44,547 nt of DNA from Candidatus Hydrogenedentota bacterium. Its GTDB lineage: Bacteria; Hydrogenedentota; Hydrogenedentia; Hydrogenedentales; GCA-2746185. Below are positions 2,180 through 26,022 of the stretch, piece by piece; position 1 is the first letter of the stretch; every line of letters starts with the position of its first letter. The position numbers were made by a program, and so were the translations under genes. The stretch lies in the NCBI GenBank assembly GCA_947486375.1, contig CANKTP010000004.1, positions 1-44,547 on the forward strand, given 5' to 3'. The notes below the pieces were generated by a model. That model was not told where the DNA came from and ran no database searches. It saw only the letters and a list, made by a program, of their open reading frames with translations.

Positions 2180-5100
2180 CTACTCCGCTTTCTCCTTCGC
2201 CACCATCGCCGCATCCGGCGCAATCTTCAGCCGGATCGGATCGCCCACGAACACCGGGTTCGTCGCCGAGGGCGTCTCGATGCGCGCCTGGATGTAGATG
2301 GGACGATCAATCGCCGTCACCCAAGGCTCGACGTAGAGTTCCATGCCGCGTTCGTATTCGCCCTCGCGCACGAGGATGCCGTTCAGGCCCGTATCCATTA
2401 CCCGCACGCCGTACGGCAGGTTCAACACGTCAATCGGAACCCGCCCGTCAAACCCATTCGCCCGGTCCAATTTCACCGAAATCTTGCCTGATTGCCCCGG
2501 CGCGATCGCGACTTCGAGTTCCCCGTTATTGACGACCAAGTCCGGCGGCATCTCGCTCACCGTGATCGCGCCAATACGGTTCTCGCGAACGACCGGCTTG
2601 CCGTCGAGTTCCGCCTCGGCCGATATGACGAAGGAAGCCTCGACAAAGGTCGACTGCGCATCGGATCCGGCGAAGATCGGAATCCGGACGTCTTCCTCGC
2701 CCGCGAGGACGGTATCGGGTTGCGTCGTGAAGCCTGCGGGAAGTCCCACGATCTGCACCTTCACCGGACCGTCGAATCCGTCCTTGCGCTGAACGCTCAC
2801 CTCGACCGTCTTCTTGCTCCCGCGCGAGATGTTCAATCGGCCCACGCCGCGCAGCGAGAAATCCGGCTTCAACGGACGCACCATCAACCGATACGCCCCG
2901 CCGTCGCCACCCGCGCCTAGCGCATCGGTCACACGCACAAGGTAATTGCCATCGGCGGGCGCCACGAAGTCGAGCCGCGAATCGCCGCCGCCGTCCGCCT
3001 CGCCGAGAAATCCGTCGTCGTTCCGCCAGAGCAATGTATGCACCGGCATGCCGTTCGTGGCGAACGCCGTCCCCGGCGGATGGACCTCGACCTTGTAGGC
3101 CTTGCTGTCCACCGCGTGGTGCTCGGGCGTCGTTCCGAAGAAGGTCTTGCGCTGGCCGTTCGCGTAGGTCGCGAAGCCCACGTCCTCGTCGCCGTAGTCC
3201 GGCAGATCGTCGACCATGATGATCTCGGAGCCCATCATCATGTAGTCGTTCATCTTGATGTCGCGCCAACTATCCAGCCGGAAGCCGCCGCTCCGCGAGT
3301 CGCGTCCGTTGAGCGCGAGGTGGGTCTGCGCGACGCTCCGCACCACGCCCAATTCAAGCGGCTTGCCACTGGTATCGAGAATTTCGATCAGCGAGTCCAA
3401 CCCAACGCCCAGCCGCGATGCCAGCGTCTCGATGACATACGTCTCGCCCTTGGTCGCGGCGAAGCGATACACATCCGAATCGCCCCCGGCAACGGATGAA
3501 TCGATTTGTCCATTCGTCGTCGACGGAAACGCCACCGTCATCGCGCTCGCGGGGTCGTTGTTCGGCTCCGCCTCGAAGGCCTCGGGGAACGGCCCGACCG
3601 CCACGCGCGGCACCGGCACCGGGTTCCATTCCGCATACGAAACAGGCAGCTCGGCGCGCGTGGTGACGTCCGCAGTTTCGGGCGGCGTGACGCGAAGGAC
3701 TTCCGTCCCGCCCAAGTTGAATCCCTTGGCATGCACATCCGTCGCGATTCCAGCGGGCACCCCGAGCGGCGAGACTTCCGTCACAAAGGGAAACCGGCCC
3801 ACGTTCAGCCGGTAGTACAGCCCGGCCCGCAATTCCTTGTCCTCGATCTGCAACACATAATCGCCGTCCGTGGCCGTCTTGAACCCGAGGAACATTCGGC
3901 TCTTCGGCCCGTGATCGGCGTTCGTCGCAATCACGATACCCGCGCCATCAAAGGCCTTCATCGCTGGACTAATCGTCGTGTCGGTCAGCACGAACACAAT
4001 CTCGTCGCCCGCCTTCGCGGCCACCTTGTAGCGATCCACGTCACCCGCGATATTGAATTGCCCCACCATAATCGTCGGCCACGCGAGCGCCTGCGCCGTC
4101 TCGACGGTATCGTTTGGTTCCGTCTCGCCCCCGTCGGCCTGGTCGGCCACGGTGAACGACTGCCCGTTGCTCAGGCCAGTCGGCGTCCGGAACAAAATCT
4201 CGTGCCGCCCCACGGCGATGTCCGCCGCGATGGTCAGTTTCAATTTCAGTTTGTACGGCCGCGCATTGTCGATGATTTCCCCCGCCGTGCCGCGCTTGCC
4301 GTCGTCGAAATCCAAGTCCACCTCGGGCCCCGGCTCGACCGACAGAATCTCCGCCTTGATTCGGCCGTCGCTCACGACGACCTCGGCCTTGTCGAGGTTC
4401 TTGCCGTCGACCGTCACCTCGACCTCTGTGCCCTTCGGCGCGCGGTCGGGGCTCATCGAGCCAAACGACGGGGGCACCGTCGCGCGGAGGATGACTGGAG
4501 GCACGGCGAGCGGGCGCGGCTTCTTGCCCTTGTCCGTCTCCACCGCCGCCACCGTGGTTGTCCCGTCCAGCGGCTTCCCGGTCGCCGCTGCATACAACGC
4601 GCTCGACGCATCGTAACGTCCCGCGGCAAGCAACGCGCCATCGGGGCTCAACGCCAGCGCGGACACCCAATCGGCCTGTGGCTCGAAGACAATCCCTTCC
4701 GCCAGCGTCGCCGCGTCCCATGCCTTGATGCGCTGGTCCTCGCCGGTCGAATAGATCGTCTTTTCGTCGGGCGAATACACAATTTTCAAAATCGGGCCAT
4801 CGTGTGCAAACGTCGACGCCGCCAGTTGGCCCGCCGTCGATCCCGATTGCTGTATCGGCTCGCCGCCGGTGTCCATCCGCCACACGCGAATGCTCTTGTC
4901 CGCCCCCGCGCCCGCGAGGAATTTCCCCGACGGCGAGAAGGCGATGCTGTTGACCGTATCGAGCGAATCGCTAATCGTCAGCAGCAGCATGCCCGTCGCC
5001 GCATCCCAAATCTTGACGGTCCTGTCGCCCGCGCCCGAGGCGATCATCTTTCCGTCCGGCGAATAGTCGAGCGTGTACACCGCGTCGACGTGGTTCTCGA

Positions 5101-5998
5101 GCAGCATCCGTTGCGTGCCCGCCGCCACGTCCCAGATCGCAATCATCCGGTCGTAGCTCGATGTTGCCAGGCTCTTGCCGTCGGGACTAAACGCCACATC
5201 GAGGATATTGTCCTTGTGTCCATCGAGCGTGCGCAGCAAGGTCCAGTCGGCGGTCTTCCAAACCTTCACCTCGCCCGCGCGTCCCGGAAGTCCGCCCGCC
5301 GCCGCCAGCAACGCGCCATCGGGAGAAAACGCGAGTCCCCGGACCGTCTCCGCATGGCCCGCGAGCGTCGCCTTCGCGGTCGACAATCCCGTCACCGAAT
5401 CGACTACGAACACCTCAACCGTGTGCAGTTGCCCCCGCGCTAGCAACAATTCCCCATTGACCGTGGCAAATGCCTGCGACGCGATGGGCGCGACGCCGGT
5501 CGTGGCATGGGCATCTTGCCCATGTGCCCCCGGCGGCGATGTCGGCAACGCGACAGGTGCCCCGCTCGACTTCGCGCCTCCCTCGATCCACAAACGGATG
5601 ACCTCGATCTGTTCCGGCTTGAGCTGCTCGAACTTCTCCGGCGGCGGCATGTGCGGCTCGGCTTTCCACTCGAGCATCCGGATCAGCTTGCTCTCCCGGG
5701 CATTCCCCGGCAGGATGCTCACCCCGCTCTCCCCGCCCGCCAACATTGTCGCCGCCGTCGAAAGATCGAGCTTCGACTTCACCTTCTCCGTCCCCGGAAA
5801 ATGACATCCGGAACATTTCTTCTGGAGAATCGGGTAGACATCGGCCTCGAAGGTCACATCGGCCGCATACACGGGCACCAAAGCGATTGCGGCAATTGTC
5901 AGCCCACGAAACCAACACCAGGACAAGTCCCCCTTATAAGGGGGATCAAGGGGGATGTCAGCGCGGTATATCGGCCACGCCCAGCGGTCAAGCATCAT
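2180..5998 (-). CDS. PSCyt1 cytochrome - WD40 - PPC multidomain exported protein
   Basis: A 1272-residue multidomain protein of the planctomycete-type family. Order: signal-like hydrophobic segment (RGLTIAAIALVPVYAA, about 31-46); PSCyt1 cytochrome-like domain with heme motif CSGCH (62-66) and a likely distal Met in MPPP (117); WD40 repeats from about 170 to 490 (several 'SPDGK.LA' and 'I.IWD' units); a TIG-like beta domain near 505-600; then two pre-peptidase C-terminal (PPC) type segments, each opening with 'EPN[DN]', and further beta-rich domains. Probably periplasmic or surface-bound. It is the last gene of a three-gene minus-strand set with 6016-8460 and 8561-9928; such genes co-occur in Planctomycetota, where their role is unknown. 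Start: ATG 5998 has GAGG upstream, but the first 25 codons include a 31-bp repeat read in frame (IPLDPPYKGDL). A TTG at 5926 just after the repeat, with AAGGGGGAC as ribosome site, is a real alternative. Confidence 0.86.
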   Translation of the reverse strand: MMLDRWAWPIYRADIPLDPPYKGDLSWCWFRGLTIAAIALVPVYAADVTFEADVYPILQKKCSGCHFPGTEKVKSKLDLSTAATMLAGGESGVSILPGNARESKLIRMLEWKAEPHMPPPEKFEQLKPEQIEVIRLWIEGGAKSSGAPVALPTSPPGAHGQDAHATTGVAPIASQAFATVNGELLLARGQLHTVEVFVVDSVTGLSTAKATLAGHAETVRGLAFSPDGALLAAAGGLPGRAGEVKVWKTADWTLLRTLDGHKDNILDVAFSPDGKSLATSSYDRMIAIWDVAAGTQRMLLENHVDAVYTLDYSPDGKMIASGAGDRTVKIWDAATGMLLLTISDSLDTVNSIAFSPSGKFLAGAGADKSIRVWRMDTGGEPIQQSGSTAGQLAASTFAHDGPILKIVYSPDEKTIYSTGEDQRIKAWDAATLAEGIVFEPQADWVSALALSPDGALLAAGRYDASSALYAAATGKPLDGTTTVAAVETDKGKKPRPLAVPPVILRATVPPSFGSMSPDRAPKGTEVEVTVDGKNLDKAEVVVSDGRIKAEILSVEPGPEVDLDFDDGKRGTAGEIIDNARPYKLKLKLTIAADIAVGRHEILFRTPTGLSNGQSFTVADQADGGETEPNDTVETAQALAWPTIMVGQFNIAGDVDRYKVAAKAGDEIVFVLTDTTISPAMKAFDGAGIVIATNADHGPKSRMFLGFKTATDGDYVLQIEDKELRAGLYYRLNVGRFPFVTEVSPLGVPAGIATDVHAKGFNLGGTEVLRVTPPETADVTTRAELPVSYAEWNPVPVPRVAVGPFPEAFEAEPNNDPASAMTVAFPSTTNGQIDSSVAGGDSDVYRFAATKGETYVIETLASRLGVGLDSLIEILDTSGKPLELGVVRSVAQTHLALNGRDSRSGGFRLDSWRDIKMNDYMMMGSEIIMVDDLPDYGDEDVGFATYANGQRKTFFGTTPEHHAVDSKAYKVEVHPPGTAFATNGMPVHTLLWRNDDGFLGEADGGGDSRLDFVAPADGNYLVRVTDALGAGGDGGAYRLMVRPLKPDFSLRGVGRLNISRGSKKTVEVSVQRKDGFDGPVKVQIVGLPAGFTTQPDTVLAGEEDVRIPIFAGSDAQSTFVEASFVISAEAELDGKPVVRENRIGAITVSEMPPDLVVNNGELEVAIAPGQSGKISVKLDRANGFDGRVPIDVLNLPYGVRVMDTGLNGILVREGEYERGMELYVEPWVTAIDRPIYIQARIETPSATNPVFVGDPIRLKIAPDAAMVAKEKAE
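5503..5528. repeat. GGGCATCTTGCCCATG palindrome inside the WD40 gene
   Basis: The palindrome TGGCATGGGCATCTTGCCCA continues to 5528 and is read as HGQDAHAT (about residues 159-166) of the PSCyt1-WD40 protein, in the linker between the cytochrome and WD40 domains. The same coding repeat occurs twice in the gene at 13291-14040, so it is a dispersed DNA element tolerated in linkers. Confidence 0.75.
5927..5957 (-). repeat. 31-bp G5/C5 palindromic repeat, copy B (coding)
   Basis: Same element as at 465-495 in the opposite orientation, with TATAAG in place of TTGAAG/TTCAAA at the centre. It lies inside the open frame at the 5' end of the WD40 gene, where it is translated as DIPLDPPYKGD, or it forms the leader and ribosome site if translation starts at TTG 5926. 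Confidence 0.82.
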
Positions 5999-6015
5999 TT
6001 CAAAAACCTCGACAA

Positions 6016-8460
6016 TCAGTGATTAAACAAAAATTCCTTGCTCGTCAGCACCGCCCAAGCCACGTCCTCGAACCCCAGCCGCCGCTCCTCGGGCGACACC
6101 GCCGCGGACGCCAGCAATGGCAGGGCCTTGTCCATCTCCCCCGGCGAGGGAAACCGTCCCAACGCCCGGAGGTAAATGTCCTCCAACGCGCCCTTGTCGT
6201 CGAGCCCCTTCGCCAACAGGTGCGACACCATCGAGTTCGCGTCGCGCAGCTTGCCGTTCAGGGTATCGCCGTTCGCGATGTGCAGCGCTTGGGCCACGCT
6301 CGAGTCCTCGGTGCGTTCGCAGGAACACGTCTGCTCGCGTTCCGGACGGCCGAACGCGGTCAGGAAATAGGACCCCACCTGCGAGTCGGGCAACTGGAGC
6401 GCCCGGAACCCGCCCGGATAACCATCAAAGGCCGTCGGCACCGCCGTCACGGCGGAATAGGCATCGAGAATCACCTCCGCGTCCAAGCGCCGGATGATAT
6501 ACGCCGAATAATATTTCTCGTCCGCGACATTCGGATCGGCGGACTGGGAGGAGCGTTGATACGCCGCCGAGTTCATGATCGTGCGAATCAATTGTTTGAC
6601 ATCGAACTTTTTCTCGACGAAATCGGCTGTGAGCGCCTCGAAGAGCGGCTGGTTGGTCGCGGGGTTCGTCAGCCGCAGATCGTCGACCGGCTCGACCAAT
6701 CCCCGGCCCATGAAGTTCTTCCAGACCCGGTTCACGATGGCCCGCGTAAAGTAGGGATTGTCGGACGAGGTGAGCCATTTGACCAAGGTCTCGCGGCGGT
6801 CCCCCGGCTGATCCAGCGGTATCGCCTCGCCGTCCAAGGGCTTCGGCGGCACCGGCACCCCCAGTCTCGGGTGCGGGATATTGCCAAAGGGATCGGCCAA
6901 CACATCGATGTCCCCGCCGTTCTTCCCGTTCTTCAACTTCACCTGCGAGAACAGGTTGGCCATCCCGTAATAATCGTCCTGGGTCCACTTCTCCAGCGGA
7001 TGGTTGTGGCAGCGCGCACAGGTGATCGACATCCCGAGAAACGCCAGCGAGGTCGTCTCCGTCAAGTCGATGGTCTCCTTGTGCATCGCGAAGTAGTTCG
7101 CCGCGCCGTTTTCCTGGGTGCTTCCCGTCGCCGTCAGGAGGTCCCGGGCGAACTGGTCCCAGGGCTTGTTGGCAGTTACGCTCTCGCGGATGAAACGGTT
7201 AAATGCCGTCAAGTCCTCTCGGCGCGGCAAGTTACGCGATGAAACGAGCAACAGGTCGGACCATTTATAGGACCAATAGTCGACGAACTCGGGCCTCTCC
7301 AACAAGGCGTCCACGAGCCGCGCCTGCTTGTCAGGACGGTTGTCCATGACAAACGCGAAACTCTCGTCGCTCGTCGGAAGTACCCCAGTCGCATCGAGAT
7401 ACGCACGCCGCACGAACTCAGCGTCGCTCGCCTTCGCCGCTGGGGCGATCCTGAGTTGAGAGAGCTGCGCGAGGACATGCTCGTCGATGAAATTCGCGCG
7501 GGGTGCCTTGGCAAAGACCTCGGGGGAAATCGCATCCGCCCGGGGCACAACCACTTGCGCGGCATTCACCCGGCTCGAATACCACACCGATATCGCCGCC
7601 GCGCCGGGACCCTGCACCGTCACCCCGCCCAGGTCGTCGACGATCACCACCGATTCGTCCGTGGTGCTGAACTTAGCCCAGCGGGTCACGTCCGCGTAAG
7701 TGCCGTCGGAATAATGGGCTTGCACAAGAAGCGGTTGCTTCACCCCCGCGCCAAGCGTCACGTTCGGCGGGTACACCGCGATGCGCTCGATCCGGGGATC
7801 GTCTTCCTTCGCCTTCGGGGCACCGGCGATAATCCACTCGCGGATGAGGGCGTAGGGCTCGCTATCCTTCTCGAAACGCTCGCCGCCTTCATGGGGAATG
7901 GACATCGTGGGCTTCAGAAGTATCAGGCTCGCCTCGGGTTCCGCTAGGGACACCCGCCGACCCTTCGCCTGCCGCGTCAACGCGCGATGATCGAGGTCAT
8001 GGTCGAATCCGCGGAGCGACAATTTAAATCCGTTCTTGCCCGCCGCCGCCCCGTGGCACGCACCGGTGTTGCACCCCATCTTGTACAAAACTGGCTGAAT
8101 ATGGTTCCGAAAACTGGGTTGGAATGATTGTGTTCTACCTGAAACACGCACTTTCGCCTCGACCGTCTCCCCATTTGCGGTCGCCTTGATCGTCGTTTCC
8201 CCATCCCCAACGGCGGTCACTCTTCCCAGCGCATCCACCGTTGCCACTGCCAGATTTGCGGAGCTAAACTCGACCCCGCTCGGCACGCCCAAGATCGTCG
8301 CGCCCTCCACCTCCTGGACCAACAACCCGTGGATCGCCCCCACCCGGTTTAGCGCGATCTCGTCCGGAAACGCCCGCAACTCGGCGTACGCTGAAATTGA
8401 AGTGGCTGCCACAGCTAGGAACACGGAAAGAACCGAACGGCAATAACTTACGGCAAACAC
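6016..8460 (-). CDS. BIG2 / PSCyt2 (DUF1549) / PSD1 (DUF1553) exported protein
   Basis: 814 residues with an N-terminal signal peptide (hydrophobic 10-24, cleavage near AYA-EL). Order: BIG2 Ig-like domain at about 27-108 ('VATVDALGRVTAVGDGETTI'); a short cysteine segment GCNTGACHG (129-137), which is CX4CH rather than canonical CXXCH; a second Ig-like region at about 205-305; DUF1549/PSCyt2 at about 320-520 with a canonical heme motif CARCH (481-485) followed by NHPLEKW; and DUF1553/PSD1 at about 555-800. These proteins are abundant in Planctomycetota, Verrucomicrobiota and relatives, are presumed periplasmic c-type cytochromes, and have no settled function. Its stop is 17 bases before the ATG of the WD40 gene, and a 31-bp repeat lies between it and the DUF1501 gene upstream, so the trio is probably co-transcribed. 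The role is inferred only from company: extracellular polymer breakdown or electron transfer. Confidence 0.9.
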   Translation of the reverse strand: MFAVSYCRSVLSVFLAVAATSISAYAELRAFPDEIALNRVGAIHGLLVQEVEGATILGVPSGVEFSSANLAVATVDALGRVTAVGDGETTIKATANGETVEAKVRVSGRTQSFQPSFRNHIQPVLYKMGCNTGACHGAAAGKNGFKLSLRGFDHDLDHRALTRQAKGRRVSLAEPEASLILLKPTMSIPHEGGERFEKDSEPYALIREWIIAGAPKAKEDDPRIERIAVYPPNVTLGAGVKQPLLVQAHYSDGTYADVTRWAKFSTTDESVVIVDDLGGVTVQGPGAAAISVWYSSRVNAAQVVVPRADAISPEVFAKAPRANFIDEHVLAQLSQLRIAPAAKASDAEFVRRAYLDATGVLPTSDESFAFVMDNRPDKQARLVDALLERPEFVDYWSYKWSDLLLVSSRNLPRREDLTAFNRFIRESVTANKPWDQFARDLLTATGSTQENGAANYFAMHKETIDLTETTSLAFLGMSITCARCHNHPLEKWTQDDYYGMANLFSQVKLKNGKNGGDIDVLADPFGNIPHPRLGVPVPPKPLDGEAIPLDQPGDRRETLVKWLTSSDNPYFTRAIVNRVWKNFMGRGLVEPVDDLRLTNPATNQPLFEALTADFVEKKFDVKQLIRTIMNSAAYQRSSQSADPNVADEKYYSAYIIRRLDAEVILDAYSAVTAVPTAFDGYPGGFRALQLPDSQVGSYFLTAFGRPEREQTCSCERTEDSSVAQALHIANGDTLNGKLRDANSMVSHLLAKGLDDKGALEDIYLRALGRFPSPGEMDKALPLLASAAVSPEERRLGFEDVAWAVLTSKEFLFNH

Positions 8461-8500
8461 TTTGGCGATTCTCCTAACCTACCTTGTCCCGTTGGCTAAA

Positions 8501-8531
8501 GTCCCCCTTTGAAGGGGGATCAAGGGGGATG
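8501..8531 (-). repeat. 31-bp G5/C5 palindromic repeat, copy C
   Basis: Same orientation as copy B and, read in reverse complement, identical over 31 bases to copies A and D. It occupies the 100-base spacer between the DUF1501 gene and the PSD1 gene of the minus-strand set, so it would lie in the shared transcript and could act as an RNA hairpin (CCCCCTT-TG-AAGGGGG). Confidence 0.85.
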
Positions 8532-8560
8532 TTATGCGTAACTCAACCTATGAGCACCGC

Positions 8561-9928
8561 TTACAACAACTCCCCAATCACCTTCGTCCCATAATCCACC
8601 ACCGGTATCGGGCGCTGTCCCGGGCCCGGCAATTCCGTCTCGATATCAATCCCGAGGCAATGGTACACCGTCGCCACCACCTCTGCCGGGGTCACGGGCC
8701 GTTCCACGGGGTAAGCGCCTATCGAGTCAGTCCTTCCGACGACGCGCCCGCCTTGGATGCCCCCGCCCGCCATCAAGATTGACCACACCTGCGGCCAATG
8801 GTCGCGCCCGCCCGCCGGGTTGATCTTCGGCGTCCGCCCAAACTCGCCCATCGCGACCACGAGGGTGTTCTCGAGCATCCCGCGCTGGCTAAGGTCTTCC
8901 AGCAAAGTGCTATACGCATGGTCGAACATCGGCCCGACGAGGTCGGTATAGCACTCGATGGGACTAAACGGCGCCGAGCCGTGAATGTCCCAGGTGATCT
9001 CGTTGAAGACCGTCTCGAACATATTGACCGTGGCAAACCGCACGCCCCGCTCGATTAACCGGCGCGACAACAGGCAGCCGTGTCCGAACTTGTTGTAACC
9101 ATAGGCTTTGCGGAGTTCTTCCGGTTCCTGCTTGAGGTCAAAGGCCTCGCGCGCCAGAGGCGACGACATCAGGGTGTAGGCCTGCTGGAAATTCTCGTCG
9201 AGCAGCCGCGCGTCGGCGCTCTTCTCCAGTTGCGCGACCGATTGGTCCACCATGTCGCGCAACGCACGGCGACGGTCAAGCCGCGACGCGGAAATATAAT
9301 CCGGCGGCAAGAGGTCCGGCACGGCGAAGTCCGGCTTCTGCGGCTCGTCGTTTAGGATGAACGGGTCGTGCGTCTTCCCGAGGAACCCGGCGTTTTGGCC
9401 GTGGGGCATGTTCCCCCCCGTGTTGCCGATGGGACGCGGGATCACCACGTGCGGCGGCAGGCCGTTCCGGCTCCCCTTGAGGTACCCGAGGACGCAACCC
9501 GCGTGCGGGTGCTCCATGCCGTTCTGGAAGAGCCGCCCGGTCTGCATCATCTGGTGGCCCGTGTCGTGGACCCCGGCGGCCTTGTGATGCAGCGTCCGGA
9601 TGATGGAGAACTTATCCGCTTGCTTGGCGATGTTCGGGAAGATTTCGGAGATTTGGATGTCCGGGCTGTTCGTGCGGATGGGCTTGTACGGCCCGCGAAT
9701 CTCGGCGGGCGCGTCCGGCTTCATGTCGAAGGTGTCGAGCTGGCTCGGCCCGCCCACCAGGAACAGGAAGATGCAATTCATGTCCTTCGACACCGCCCCC
9801 GCCTTCTTCAGTCCCATGAACGACGGCAACGTCAATCCGAGCGTCGCCAGCGAACCCGCGTGCAAAAAGTCCCGCCGCGTCATCCCGTCGCAGAAATGGA
9901 CCGGCTTCTGGGCATCGATACGATACAT
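8561..9928 (-). CDS. DUF1501 family Tat-exported protein
   Basis: 455 residues of the DUF1501 family, which is related to the alkaline-phosphatase/sulfatase fold. Twin-arginine signal TRRDFLHAGSLATLGL at about 18-33. Family marks: FLFLVGGPSQLDTFDMKP (about 55-72), HHKAAGVHDTGHQMMQTG, and near the C-terminus GEFGRTPKINPAGGRDHWP (about 366-384), whose Asp/His residues correspond to metal ligands in the alkaline phosphatase superfamily. Its own catalytic activity is not established. First gene of the trio with 6016-8460 and 2180-5998; DUF1501 and PSCyt2/PSD1 genes are neighbours in most planctomycete-like genomes, so a joint export or degradation role is likely. The ATG at 9928 has GGAG eleven bases upstream. 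Confidence 0.92.
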   Translation of the reverse strand: MYRIDAQKPVHFCDGMTRRDFLHAGSLATLGLTLPSFMGLKKAGAVSKDMNCIFLFLVGGPSQLDTFDMKPDAPAEIRGPYKPIRTNSPDIQISEIFPNIAKQADKFSIIRTLHHKAAGVHDTGHQMMQTGRLFQNGMEHPHAGCVLGYLKGSRNGLPPHVVIPRPIGNTGGNMPHGQNAGFLGKTHDPFILNDEPQKPDFAVPDLLPPDYISASRLDRRRALRDMVDQSVAQLEKSADARLLDENFQQAYTLMSSPLAREAFDLKQEPEELRKAYGYNKFGHGCLLSRRLIERGVRFATVNMFETVFNEITWDIHGSAPFSPIECYTDLVGPMFDHAYSTLLEDLSQRGMLENTLVVAMGEFGRTPKINPAGGRDHWPQVWSILMAGGGIQGGRVVGRTDSIGAYPVERPVTPAEVVATVYHCLGIDIETELPGPGQRPIPVVDYGTKVIGELL

Positions 9929-22282: not shown

Positions 22283-22897
22283 TTAGAACGACGATTTCGT
22301 CCGCGCAGGCTTGCCGATCGGCTTCGCAAACAGCGCGACCACTCGCTCCATCAGATCAGCCATGCCGAAAGGTTTGCGCAGGTAGTCGTCGAATCCGTAT
22401 TTGCCCAGGTCCCGCGCCTCGCCGTCATCGATGTAACCCGAAATCGCCAGGACCCGTGTCGAACGGGTCTCCGGGCGCCCCTTGACCCGTTCGCACACCA
22501 TCCGCCCGTCCATGTCGGAGAGATGAATGTCGAGGACGATCACCTGGGGATTGTGTTCCACCACCAGGGCCCCCGCATCGAATCCCGTCGAGGCGACCGC
22601 CACCTTGTAGTCGCCGTGCTTGGCGAGGATCGCCGGAATGATGTCGAGGTAGTAGGGGTCGTCGTCGACCACAAGGACGCGCTGTTCGTTCTCTTCAAGT
22701 CGATCCAGCGGAATTCCATGGGCCAACATAAACTTGCGCAAGTTCCCGAGGGGAATGCGCCGGTCGCCGCCCGTGCCAATCCGGTATCCCTCGATCTGGC
22801 CCGAATCGAACCAGCGGGCGACGGTGTCCGCCGAGACCCCGCAAATCTGCGCCGCATCCCCGCTGGTGAAGACTTCGCCGTTCGATTTTCCGGCCAT
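22283..22897 (-). CDS. Response regulator with N-terminal excisionase-type helix-turn-helix
   Basis: 204 residues with the domain order reversed from the usual response regulator. Residues about 8-60 form a MerR/excisionase-like helix-turn-helix (FTSGDAAQICGVSADTVARW ... GYRIGTGGDRRIP), and residues about 72-195 form a receiver domain with the acidic pocket DDD (78-80), phospho-acceptor D123 in VIVLDIHLSDMDG, Ser/Thr-type ISGY and K in LRKPF. It should bind DNA when a histidine kinase phosphorylates it; no kinase gene is in the window, so it is an orphan here. Start taken at ATG 22897; an open extension to 22978 has no ribosome site and no domain. It is convergent with sdhB and divergent from the halohydrin-dehalogenase-like gene, with a 171-base shared spacer, so it might regulate that gene; this is inference. 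Confidence 0.85.
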   Translation of the reverse strand: MAGKSNGEVFTSGDAAQICGVSADTVARWFDSGQIEGYRIGTGGDRRIPLGNLRKFMLAHGIPLDRLEENEQRVLVVDDDPYYLDIIPAILAKHGDYKVAVASTGFDAGALVVEHNPQVIVLDIHLSDMDGRMVCERVKGRPETRSTRVLAISGYIDDGEARDLGKYGFDDYLRKPFGMADLMERVVALFAKPIGKPARTKSSF

Positions 22898-23068
22898 CGT
22901 TTTTCGGTTCTTTCGCGTCCCCGGTCCCACGGCAATCCGGCAGAACAATATTTCCGGGTGCAGGGACCGCCATGACATGTTGAATTGCGCTACCTATTCG
23001 ATAACTATATGGGCACGGGGAGTGGGTGTCAATCCCGTGTAATCCAGCGCAGGTGGAGTCGTTTAATC

Positions 23069-23758
23069 ATGTCCCGTCGATTGGAAGGCAGGCGGGTCCT
23101 TATCACCGATATCGATCGGTATATGGGCCGTCCCATCGCGGAGCTCTTCTCCGCGGAGGGCGCCGTGGTTATCGAGAATGGGGACGACCTGCGGCAGCCC
23201 GGCGCCGCCGAGCGCGTCGTGGCCGAGGCCGGTCCCCTCGACGTGCTCGTCGCCAACCTCGCCGAGGCGGACGAGAAAATGGAACTCCTCGAAAATATAC
23301 GCGACGAGGACTGGCACGGCTTCTTCGATCGCCTGGTCCATCCCCTCATGCGGCTCGTGCGCGCCGCCGTCCCGCCCATGTGCGCACAGGGCCACGGCAA
23401 AGTCGTCGCCATCACCAGCGCCGCGCCGCTCCGGGGCGTCCCCAAAGCCTCGGCCTATTGCGCCGCGCGGGGCGCTCAGAATGCCTTCATCCGCGCGGTG
23501 GGCCTCGAGGTGGCGCGGCACAACGTGCAGGTCAACGCCATCGCCCAGAACTACGTCGAGAACGTGACCTATTACCCTCCGGAGATGATTGCCGACGCCG
23601 CCATGATGGAACGCATCCTCAAGGTCGTCCCGGCAAAACGGTTGGGCAAAGGCCGCGAGACGGCGGAGCTGGCGCTGTTCCTCGCATCGGAGAACAGCGA
23701 TTTCATCGTGGGACAGGTCATTCCGTTTTCGGGGGGATGGGCGACGACGACGGGGTGA
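23069..23758 (+). CDS. Halohydrin dehalogenase-like short-chain dehydrogenase family protein
   Basis: 229 residues of the SDR fold. Two features set it apart from ordinary NAD(P)H reductases. The N-terminal glycine motif TGxxxGxG is replaced by TDIDRYMG (13-20), which fits the T-x4-[FY]-x-G motif of halohydrin dehalogenases, where the lost cofactor site becomes a halide pocket. The catalytic set is S117-x12-Y130-x3-R134, with Arg in place of the SDR Lys. The later segment NAIAQNYVENVTYYPPEM also resembles HheC-type enzymes (NY...YFYP). Halohydrin dehalogenases turn vicinal halo-alcohols into epoxides without cofactor and also open epoxides with azide, cyanide or nitrite. ATG 23069 has AGGTGGAG upstream. 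It stands alone between a divergent response regulator and a convergent penicillin acylase gene. Activity is inferred from motifs; a non-redox SDR of another kind is possible. Confidence 0.78.
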   Translation: MSRRLEGRRVLITDIDRYMGRPIAELFSAEGAVVIENGDDLRQPGAAERVVAEAGPLDVLVANLAEADEKMELLENIRDEDWHGFFDRLVHPLMRLVRAAVPPMCAQGHGKVVAITSAAPLRGVPKASAYCAARGAQNAFIRAVGLEVARHNVQVNAIAQNYVENVTYYPPEMIADAAMMERILKVVPAKRLGKGRETAELALFLASENSDFIVGQVIPFSGGWATTTG

Positions 23759-23847: not shown

Positions 23848-26022
23848 CTATTCCTTGTGCTGTTCGCCGGGGTGATAGACGCTGACGGCCTGGCGCTCGA
23901 CGTCGTCCCAGTAGAACCATGCGGGCTTGAACTGTTGCTTTGACATCAGCTCGGCCTGGTCGAAGAAGTGGGGCGACTTTGGATCGCCGCTCTGGCCGTA
24001 GTGGAGAAAGCTTCCGGCCTTAATCTTTTCACCGAACTCGTAGACGCCCATGAACGACGCGCCGACCACGGCGTATTCCTTCTTACGGTTGGGCATGGGC
24101 GTCGATGGGGTGTGATATACCGTGAAAGCCACGCCAAGGGGTCCCGGCACGCCCACCTGGGGGAGGCTGGGGAGGGTGTCGTTGAAGGGGACGGTCGCCG
24201 GGCCCGCGTGATCGGCGAAGCGTTGCAGGCGGTGTACGTCGCCGTAGGGGACCTTCCAATCGCCGAAGCGCTTTTTGAGGCCGTCGGCCGCGGCGATGAG
24301 CGCCTCGAACCGCGCGTCGGGATTGTCCTGAAACTCCTTCTTCAGCGTCTCGACGGGATAGCCGCGTCCGTACAATTGCTCGTACCACTCGACGCAAAGT
24401 TCGGCCTGGGTGGATGCCGCGGTGCTCTTGTAGTCCCAATCGAGCAAGTGATCGAGATAGGGCTTCACCTTCGCGGCCAATTCCGGGTTGCGCGCCTCGA
24501 GCGCCTTGTGCTCCTTCGCGTAACGCGGGAGCTCGGTCATGGGCCAGTACATCGTCGTGTCATACGCGAGCTTCGACCAATCCTCGAACGTGAGGTCGTC
24601 CGCCCCGCGCAGCAGGTATCGCGAGATCTTCGAGCGCCGCTTGTCGTCGTCCTTGTCCTCGACCATGTAGGGCGGGAAATCCGTCTTCGAGGGATTGCCG
24701 TCGTCGGTGGCGAGGAAGGGCGTCGCGTTGCAGCTTTGAACATAGCCGGAAGCCGGGTTCAAGGCCTGGGGCAGCTCGGCCATCGTGTGAAAGTCGCCCC
24801 ATTCGTTCTTCGGGTCGCCGCCGTCGACGGGCTTTTCCCAGTCGACCGAGGGGTCCTTCTTGGCCACGGTGCCGTTGTAGATGTAGAAGATGTTGCCATC
24901 CACGTCGGCGTAGACCGTGTTGAACATCTGCAGGTTGAGCATCCCGAAGGCGGCGCTCCATTCGTCGAAATTCTTGGACTTGATCATCGCCATCGTCTGC
25001 ACCATGCGGCTGCCCTCGAAGAGCTTGGCGATCTTGACGGCGAGGTAGTGCGTGTCGTCTTCCTTCGCCATGATCGGCCCGTAGTGTGACTTGCGGAAGG
25101 TGTACTCGCGCGCCTCGAGCGCGCCGTCCTTGCCCTTCACCTTGATGGTCGCCTTCCACTCGGTGGCGTCCTTGTAGCCCTCGCCATACTTGTACTTCAG
25201 CTTGTCCGTCGGGTGATCGAAGGTGAGGCGGTACACGTCGCCGATGTCCGGTTCGTTCACTGTGTAGGCCCAGCCGAGATATTCATTGTGGCCCATCGAG
25301 GGGATCGGCCCGCCGGGAAACGTCGCGCCCGACATGTGCAGGCCCTCGCCGCTGCGGACGTGGACCTCTGTCCAGCTCCCCGTGCCGTACCAAGGCTGGT
25401 GCGGGTTCGCGAACAACATGGCCGTGCCGTTCTTGGTCTTCTCGGGGCCGACGGCCCAGGCGTTCGATCCCGTGGCGGCCTTCACCTCCGACTCGAGCAT
25501 CGTCTTAAGTTTGTTCGAGGGCGCATGGGCTTGGCCGAGCAGGCGCTGGAGCATCAGGCCGCGTTCCCACGCGAGGAAGGCCCAGGGCTCGAGTTTCGTG
25601 AGCAGTCTCGGCTTCACCAGGGGATTCTTCTCGAGAAAATAGTTGTACCCCGCGGACGCCGCATCGCACATGGCCTTGGTGTCCGGCGCGAGCTTCTCGT
25701 AGTCTTCGATTGCGCGCGGGACGATCTCGAACAAGGCCATCTGCATGTCGGTGTCGAGGCCGGCTTCGCCAACGACCTCGGACAAGCGTCCCATGCACTC
25801 GATGTAGGTCTGCTCGACCTGCCAGAAGTAGTCCTCGCATTGGGCGTACACCGAACCGAAACCGACGCTCGCGTCGGTCGGCCCGTCGATGTGGGGCACG
25901 CCCCATTCGTCGCGGTAAATCTTGACTTGGCTGGCCCATTCGGCCGCGCCGGCGAAGGCGAGGCCTGGCGCGGCAAGGAGCAGAAGGGCCAGCGTGGTGC
26001 AATGGCGGAGATGGTGTCGCAT
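23848..26022 (-). CDS. Secreted penicillin acylase-family Ntn hydrolase
   Basis: 724 residues with a Sec signal peptide (hydrophobic 9-24, cleavage near LAFA-GA). N-terminal alpha-chain start VKIYRDEWGVPHIDG (33-47) and the self-processing site TGSNAWAVG (184-192), where S186 would become the N-terminal nucleophile of the beta chain; FANPHQPW follows. This is the penicillin G acylase / acyl-homoserine-lactone acylase family; members in the periplasm hydrolyse amide-linked acyl groups, including quorum signals. Length and motif spacing are normal and nothing is missing. The gene is convergent with the SDR gene and divergent from the M6 protease gene (start 26312). The substrate cannot be read from sequence. 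Confidence 0.93.
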   Translation of the reverse strand: MRHHLRHCTTLALLLLAAPGLAFAGAAEWASQVKIYRDEWGVPHIDGPTDASVGFGSVYAQCEDYFWQVEQTYIECMGRLSEVVGEAGLDTDMQMALFEIVPRAIEDYEKLAPDTKAMCDAASAGYNYFLEKNPLVKPRLLTKLEPWAFLAWERGLMLQRLLGQAHAPSNKLKTMLESEVKAATGSNAWAVGPEKTKNGTAMLFANPHQPWYGTGSWTEVHVRSGEGLHMSGATFPGGPIPSMGHNEYLGWAYTVNEPDIGDVYRLTFDHPTDKLKYKYGEGYKDATEWKATIKVKGKDGALEAREYTFRKSHYGPIMAKEDDTHYLAVKIAKLFEGSRMVQTMAMIKSKNFDEWSAAFGMLNLQMFNTVYADVDGNIFYIYNGTVAKKDPSVDWEKPVDGGDPKNEWGDFHTMAELPQALNPASGYVQSCNATPFLATDDGNPSKTDFPPYMVEDKDDDKRRSKISRYLLRGADDLTFEDWSKLAYDTTMYWPMTELPRYAKEHKALEARNPELAAKVKPYLDHLLDWDYKSTAASTQAELCVEWYEQLYGRGYPVETLKKEFQDNPDARFEALIAAADGLKKRFGDWKVPYGDVHRLQRFADHAGPATVPFNDTLPSLPQVGVPGPLGVAFTVYHTPSTPMPNRKKEYAVVGASFMGVYEFGEKIKAGSFLHYGQSGDPKSPHFFDQAELMSKQQFKPAWFYWDDVERQAVSVYHPGEQHKE

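Follow-up and report, generated by a model that had tools for sequence, protein, structure and literature searches.

The 44,547-nucleotide stretch of Hydrogenedentota DNA analyzed here (the window) very probably carries a gene for a fairly divergent new halohydrin dehalogenase (HHDH). It would add to an established family of industrial value and not represent a new type of system. HHDHs interconvert halogenated alcohols and epoxides without a cofactor. The gene is an uninterrupted frame of 229 codons (Table 1), with the coordinates and length given in the preliminary description of this DNA, which had proposed an HHDH on the basis of its letters. We preferred the ATG start to a longer TTG start at position 22985 because a GGAG sequence ends 10 bases upstream of the ATG and the homologues begin at the same residue. 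Sequence and profile searches, a phylogenetic tree and structure prediction all agreed with the proposal and make a convincing case for membership in the family. With high confidence, we place the gene in the B/D branch of the HHDHs, in a clade of its own that is possibly the published E subtype. We infer the protein's catalysis, lack of cofactor binding and natural substrate, as well as its assembly, presumably the homotetramer (a pair of dimers) of HHDHs.

Table 1. Coordinates of the dehalogenase gene, its motifs and the divergent regulator gene, counted from the first nucleotide of the window.
Feature	Coordinates	Strand	Basis
Halohydrin dehalogenase-like SDR-fold protein, 229 aa	23069–23758	+	Frame, homology, tree, AlphaFold model
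Motif 1, T13-x4-Y18-x-G20 (TDIDRYMG), replacing the NAD(P) glycine motif	23105–23128	+	Alignment
Motif 2, catalytic triad S117-x12-Y130-x3-R134	23417–23470	+	Alignment
Nucleophile-binding loop Q160-N161-Y162...Y168-Y169-P170, where SDRs have the PG motif	23546–23578	+	Aligned with HheC P175-N176-Y177...F186-Y187-P188
Divergent orphan response regulator, HTH_17 (excisionase/MerR-like) N-terminal to receiver domain	22286–22897	-	Pfam

The best matches among all PDB sequences were HheB (E value 2e-55), HheD8 (9e-53) and HheD2 (6e-52), followed by the dehalogenase 6a41 (1e-33) and then by NAD(P)-dependent reductases at about 1e-23. The nearest solved relatives are HHDHs, ahead of NAD(P)-dependent SDRs by more than 90 bits. 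The AlphaFold model of the 229-residue protein (pLDDT 91.4, pTM 0.90) has a Rossmann fold, and a Foldseek search of the PDB with this model returned dehalogenases at ranks 1 to 10 and NAD(P)-dependent SDRs, more weakly, after them. The closest relatives by PDB search, tree and Foldseek are therefore HHDHs and not NAD(P)H-dependent SDRs. Family databases gave a general SDR label only: the protein matched adh_short_C2 and adh_short in Pfam, and in NCBIfam it matched general SDR models with scores far below their cut-offs.

The residues that define HHDHs were found in the expected columns of the alignment. HHDH motif 1 (T-x4-[FY]-x-G, versus T-G-x3-[AG]-x-G in NAD(P)-dependent SDRs) lines the halide or nucleophile pocket, and the catalytic triad is S-x12-Y-x3-R instead of Y-x3-K (PMC4989007; PMC11976700). 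For 19 selected enzymes that were identified through both motifs, HHDH activity has been confirmed (PMC4989007). The residues of motif 1 and of the triad all lie where the preliminary description had placed them, and the glycine motif is lost as it had claimed, with motif 1 in its place. The match goes beyond chance, because both motifs occupy aligned HHDH columns. The NY...YYP stretch that had been likened to the halide loop of HheC is also present, at the column of the PG motif of NAD(P)-dependent SDRs. Residue-by-residue alignment pairs HheC F12, N176, Y177, F186, Y187 and P188 with Y18, N161, Y162, Y168, Y169 and P170; HheC P175 is matched by Gln160, and Gln is likewise found in HheB and HheD. 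The residues on the substrate side (E66, A67, D68, M71 and V124) are unlike those of HheC and HheB, so the substrate range of the protein cannot be predicted.

The HHDH mechanism is established for HheC (PMC4989007; PMC11976700), and homology with HheC and HheB suggests how the new protein would work. Ser117 would hold the hydroxyl oxygen of a vicinal haloalcohol while Tyr130, its pKa lowered by Arg134, would act as the base that deprotonates the hydroxyl. The resulting alkoxide would attack the adjacent carbon and expel the halide to yield an epoxide. The halide pocket would correspond to the NAD(P) site of other SDRs and be lined by T13, Y18, G20 and the Q160-N161-Y162 loop. In the reverse direction, an epoxide would be opened by halide, azide, cyanide or nitrite.

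The position of the protein within the family was examined in a quick tree, built without bootstrap and with one B-type and no HheE sequence. Despite several long branches, this tree separated the HHDHs, including the window's protein, from the SDRs of the same genome (SH-aLRT 98) and joined it to two proteins from the same taxonomic family (support 92). Its neighbors in the clade are proteins from Chloroflexota and from mostly marine Gammaproteobacteria; a cultivated bacterium, Exilibacterium tricleocarpae (L042), also carries a member of the clade. HheB grouped with HheD2 and HheD8 (SH-aLRT 94) to the exclusion of the window's protein, which argues against a B-type grouping. The D-type enzymes are 57–95% identical to one another (PMC4989007), as illustrated by the 61% identity between HheD2 and HheD8, and the window's protein falls outside this range with 42% identity to HheD2 (7b73) and 46% to HheD8 (8xxb). 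The clade is thus not HheD and not clearly HheB, and it is perhaps the E subtype. As a lead for this placement, HheE enzymes presumably come from bacteria such as marine Gammaproteobacteria and Halieaceae. Marine Gammaproteobacteria, including Halieaceae, also dominate the clade around the window's protein, a likeness of taxonomy in a comparison that held no HheE sequence.

Comparison with characterized enzymes revealed a mixture of shared and distinct features. The B-type HheB of Corynebacterium sp. N-1074 (4zd6/5b12) is nearly equal in length (227 aa), 47% identical over 224 residues, and shares the motif-1 Tyr, the Ser-Tyr-Arg triad and the fold (TM about 0.91–0.94). However, the loop reads QNYVENVTYYP in the window's protein and QHWTQNKEYFWP in HheB, and the catalytic Ser is preceded by T116 in the former and by Gly in the latter. 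HheD2 and HheD8 share the QN[YF]V[ED]N loop and the triad (TM about 0.87–0.94) but have Phe in motif 1 where the window's protein has Tyr. HheC of Agrobacterium radiobacter AD1 (1pwx) has both motifs and the NY...[FY]YP loop. Hence, the likeness to HheC drawn in the preliminary description holds for the loop and the motifs, whereas overall identity to HheC is only 29% and HheB and HheD are closer. The window's protein also lacks the C-terminal extension of HheC with Trp249 and about 20 HheC residues before the alpha-helix at residue 46. The HheC and HheA2 sequences used here were verified by full-length matches to 1pwx and 1zmo. Separately, the N-terminus of a gammaproteobacterial-sample frame (genome G330, locus L119, 7143–7823) reads identical to that of HheD2 (7b73), and this genome seems to be the source of HheD2 or a near relative of it; it gave no match to the epoxide hydrolase family described below, and no pathway neighbor was evident by the frame.

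Four genomes carry the dehalogenase among the 68 examined from the window's uncultured phylum (one order), and in the three other than the window's own the protein is 60–68% identical to the window's. This patchy spread suggests transfer or loss. A conserved operon was not found around the gene in the phylum when the neighborhoods in G004, G005 and G063 were compared: upstream of the dehalogenase lies a GlcNAc 2-epimerase-family gene in G004 and, with one gene between, in G005, and in G063 ABM and MBL-fold genes take its place. In the window, no gene of a haloalcohol pathway was recognized adjoining the dehalogenase. We rejected a dehalogenation operon there, the neighbors being succinate dehydrogenase genes, the response regulator, a penicillin amidase and a protease-like protein. 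The penicillin amidase family protein (23851–26022, minus strand; PF01804, E value 1e-124) has a longest frame of 724 aa and a signal-peptide-like N-terminus. Elsewhere on the minus strand of the window are three long frames resembling Planctomycetes-type DUF1501 and cytochrome-c/PSD1 proteins (2180–9928) and a secreted-looking glyoxalase/VOC-family protein with two stretches matching PF00903 (30800–31666).

The response regulator had been suggested to control the dehalogenase from across a divergent gap of 171 bases. The gap is correct, provided that the regulator starts at 22897, but control is unsupported. Orthologues of the regulator (61–75% identity) occur, amid differing neighbors, in four of the five further genomes from the taxonomic family: two of these genomes (G002 and G003) have no dehalogenase, and in the two that do (G004 and G005) the orthologue lies on another contig. 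In G001 we found only paralogues with 31–36% identity. We rejected control by the regulator on the grounds that its orthologues are unlinked to the dehalogenase in relatives.

Because HHDHs make epoxides, we also searched for epoxide hydrolases, the enzymes expected to act next. The EHN family (PF06441) was present in 5 of the 68 genomes of the phylum, including three of the four dehalogenase carriers (Fisher p about 8e-4, with kinship ignored). In one of these carriers, G063, the two genes are about 6 kb apart. The window's own genome (88.7% complete) had no EHN match and one LEH-like match of 34 bits. More broadly, EHN was found in 32 of 41 genomes carrying relatives of the dehalogenase. We sampled 245 genomes evenly from one gammaproteobacterial order and found EHN in 13 of the 22 genomes with a dehalogenase match (E <= 1e-45, a cut that also admits B/D-type enzymes such as the HheD2-like one in G330) and in 47 of the 223 without (p 3e-4). 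When the matches were limited to those with 45% identity or more, 10 of 11 came with EHN. The EHN p-values are inflated by kinship, and EHN had already been seen in G063 when the test was chosen. Both genes lay within 6–10.5 kb of each other in 5 of the 13 genomes; three of these five share gene order and represent one lineage.

In that lineage, glyoxalase-family and glutathione S-transferase genes follow the dehalogenase on the same strand. This arrangement was seen in three gammaproteobacterial loci (L110, 10621–12710; L111, 11118–13721; L112, 1810–4594), where an EHN epoxide hydrolase is encoded about 10 kb away. Relatives in L029, L032, L034, L037, L051, L052 and L064 (also L035, L043, L050 and L061) are near a DsbA/HCCA-isomerase-like gene and a set of opposite-strand genes resembling a CoA pathway (CoA-transferase, MaoC, acyl-CoA dehydrogenase, thiolase and HMG-CoA synthase), all named by eye. 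The enrichment of EHN in genomes of the clade is suggestive and fits a role with epoxides, though not as an operon; the link is interesting but unproven. It is conceivable, if rather unlikely, that the clade is a distinct HHDH subtype, transferred among Gammaproteobacteria, Chloroflexota and the window's phylum, that detoxifies epoxides or halohydrins together with EHN hydrolases and thiol-dependent enzymes.

The same neighborhoods bear on another reading, in which an enzyme of the HHDH fold serves the metabolism of non-halogen epoxides or other electrophiles. Such an enzyme would add or remove some other small anion at a vicinal alcohol and release halide only as a side activity. We consider this a plausible minority reading. 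The family accepts many anions and other physiological functions are possible, according to a review (PMC4989007). Moreover, no haloalkane pathway was recognized around the relatives' loci, which instead hold the glutathione S-transferase and glyoxalase (L110–L112), EHN (L085, L110–L114) and CoA-pathway (L029–L064) genes. However, the halide-pocket motifs are fully retained, the closest solved relatives were crystallized with chloride (8xxb and 4zd6), and characterized members release halide. The two readings overlap, as a protein with such a role would still show HHDH activity in vitro.

Conservation among homologues separates the HHDH assignment from the remaining readings. The genome of the window has 18 matches to the protein, including itself. 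The position of R134 is occupied by K in all seven of the aligned SDR paralogues, which also keep the PG motif and a G-rich cofactor motif, though the latter is degenerate in one of them. A pattern-based scan of genome contigs recovered 55 relatives; with the frames of the same-family genomes and the window's own, 57 frames were inspected. The triad S-x12-Y-x3-R was present in 57 of 57 and T-x4-[FY]-x-G in 52, a motif-1 count slightly favored by the scan's use of short exact peptides, one of them spanning this motif. The five exceptions have Ser replacing Thr, Asp replacing Gly, or an unread base. Almost all homologues at 47–64% identity retained the motifs. Furthermore, an alignment of 34 homologues had 40 invariant columns, among them G20, S117, Y130, R134, Q160, N161, Y162, Y168 and P170. 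This invariance of triad and pocket across phyla, together with the intact reading frame, makes a degenerate, non-catalytic SDR-fold protein very improbable, even if such a protein would be in keeping with the absence of conserved operon partners from the window's phylum. A chance resemblance of an ordinary NAD(P)-dependent SDR to HHDHs would account for the two Pfam matches and for a fold common to all SDRs, but is scarcely credible given the loss of the glycine and PG motifs, the K to R replacement, the bit-score lead of the HHDHs and the conservation of HHDH residues in more than 50 homologues.

Few HHDHs are available, and they serve in the synthesis of chiral beta-substituted alcohols and epoxides. 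The 229-residue candidate, divergent and intact, is worth expressing given the Tyr in its motif 1: the F12Y substitution improves the activity, stability and selectivity of HheC with several substrates (PMC11976700). If the clade is indeed a detoxification subtype, it would provide a handle on the natural role of HHDHs. The review leaves the natural function of HHDHs open (PMC4989007), and the homologues with recurrent epoxide hydrolase neighbors offer concrete loci in which to examine it.
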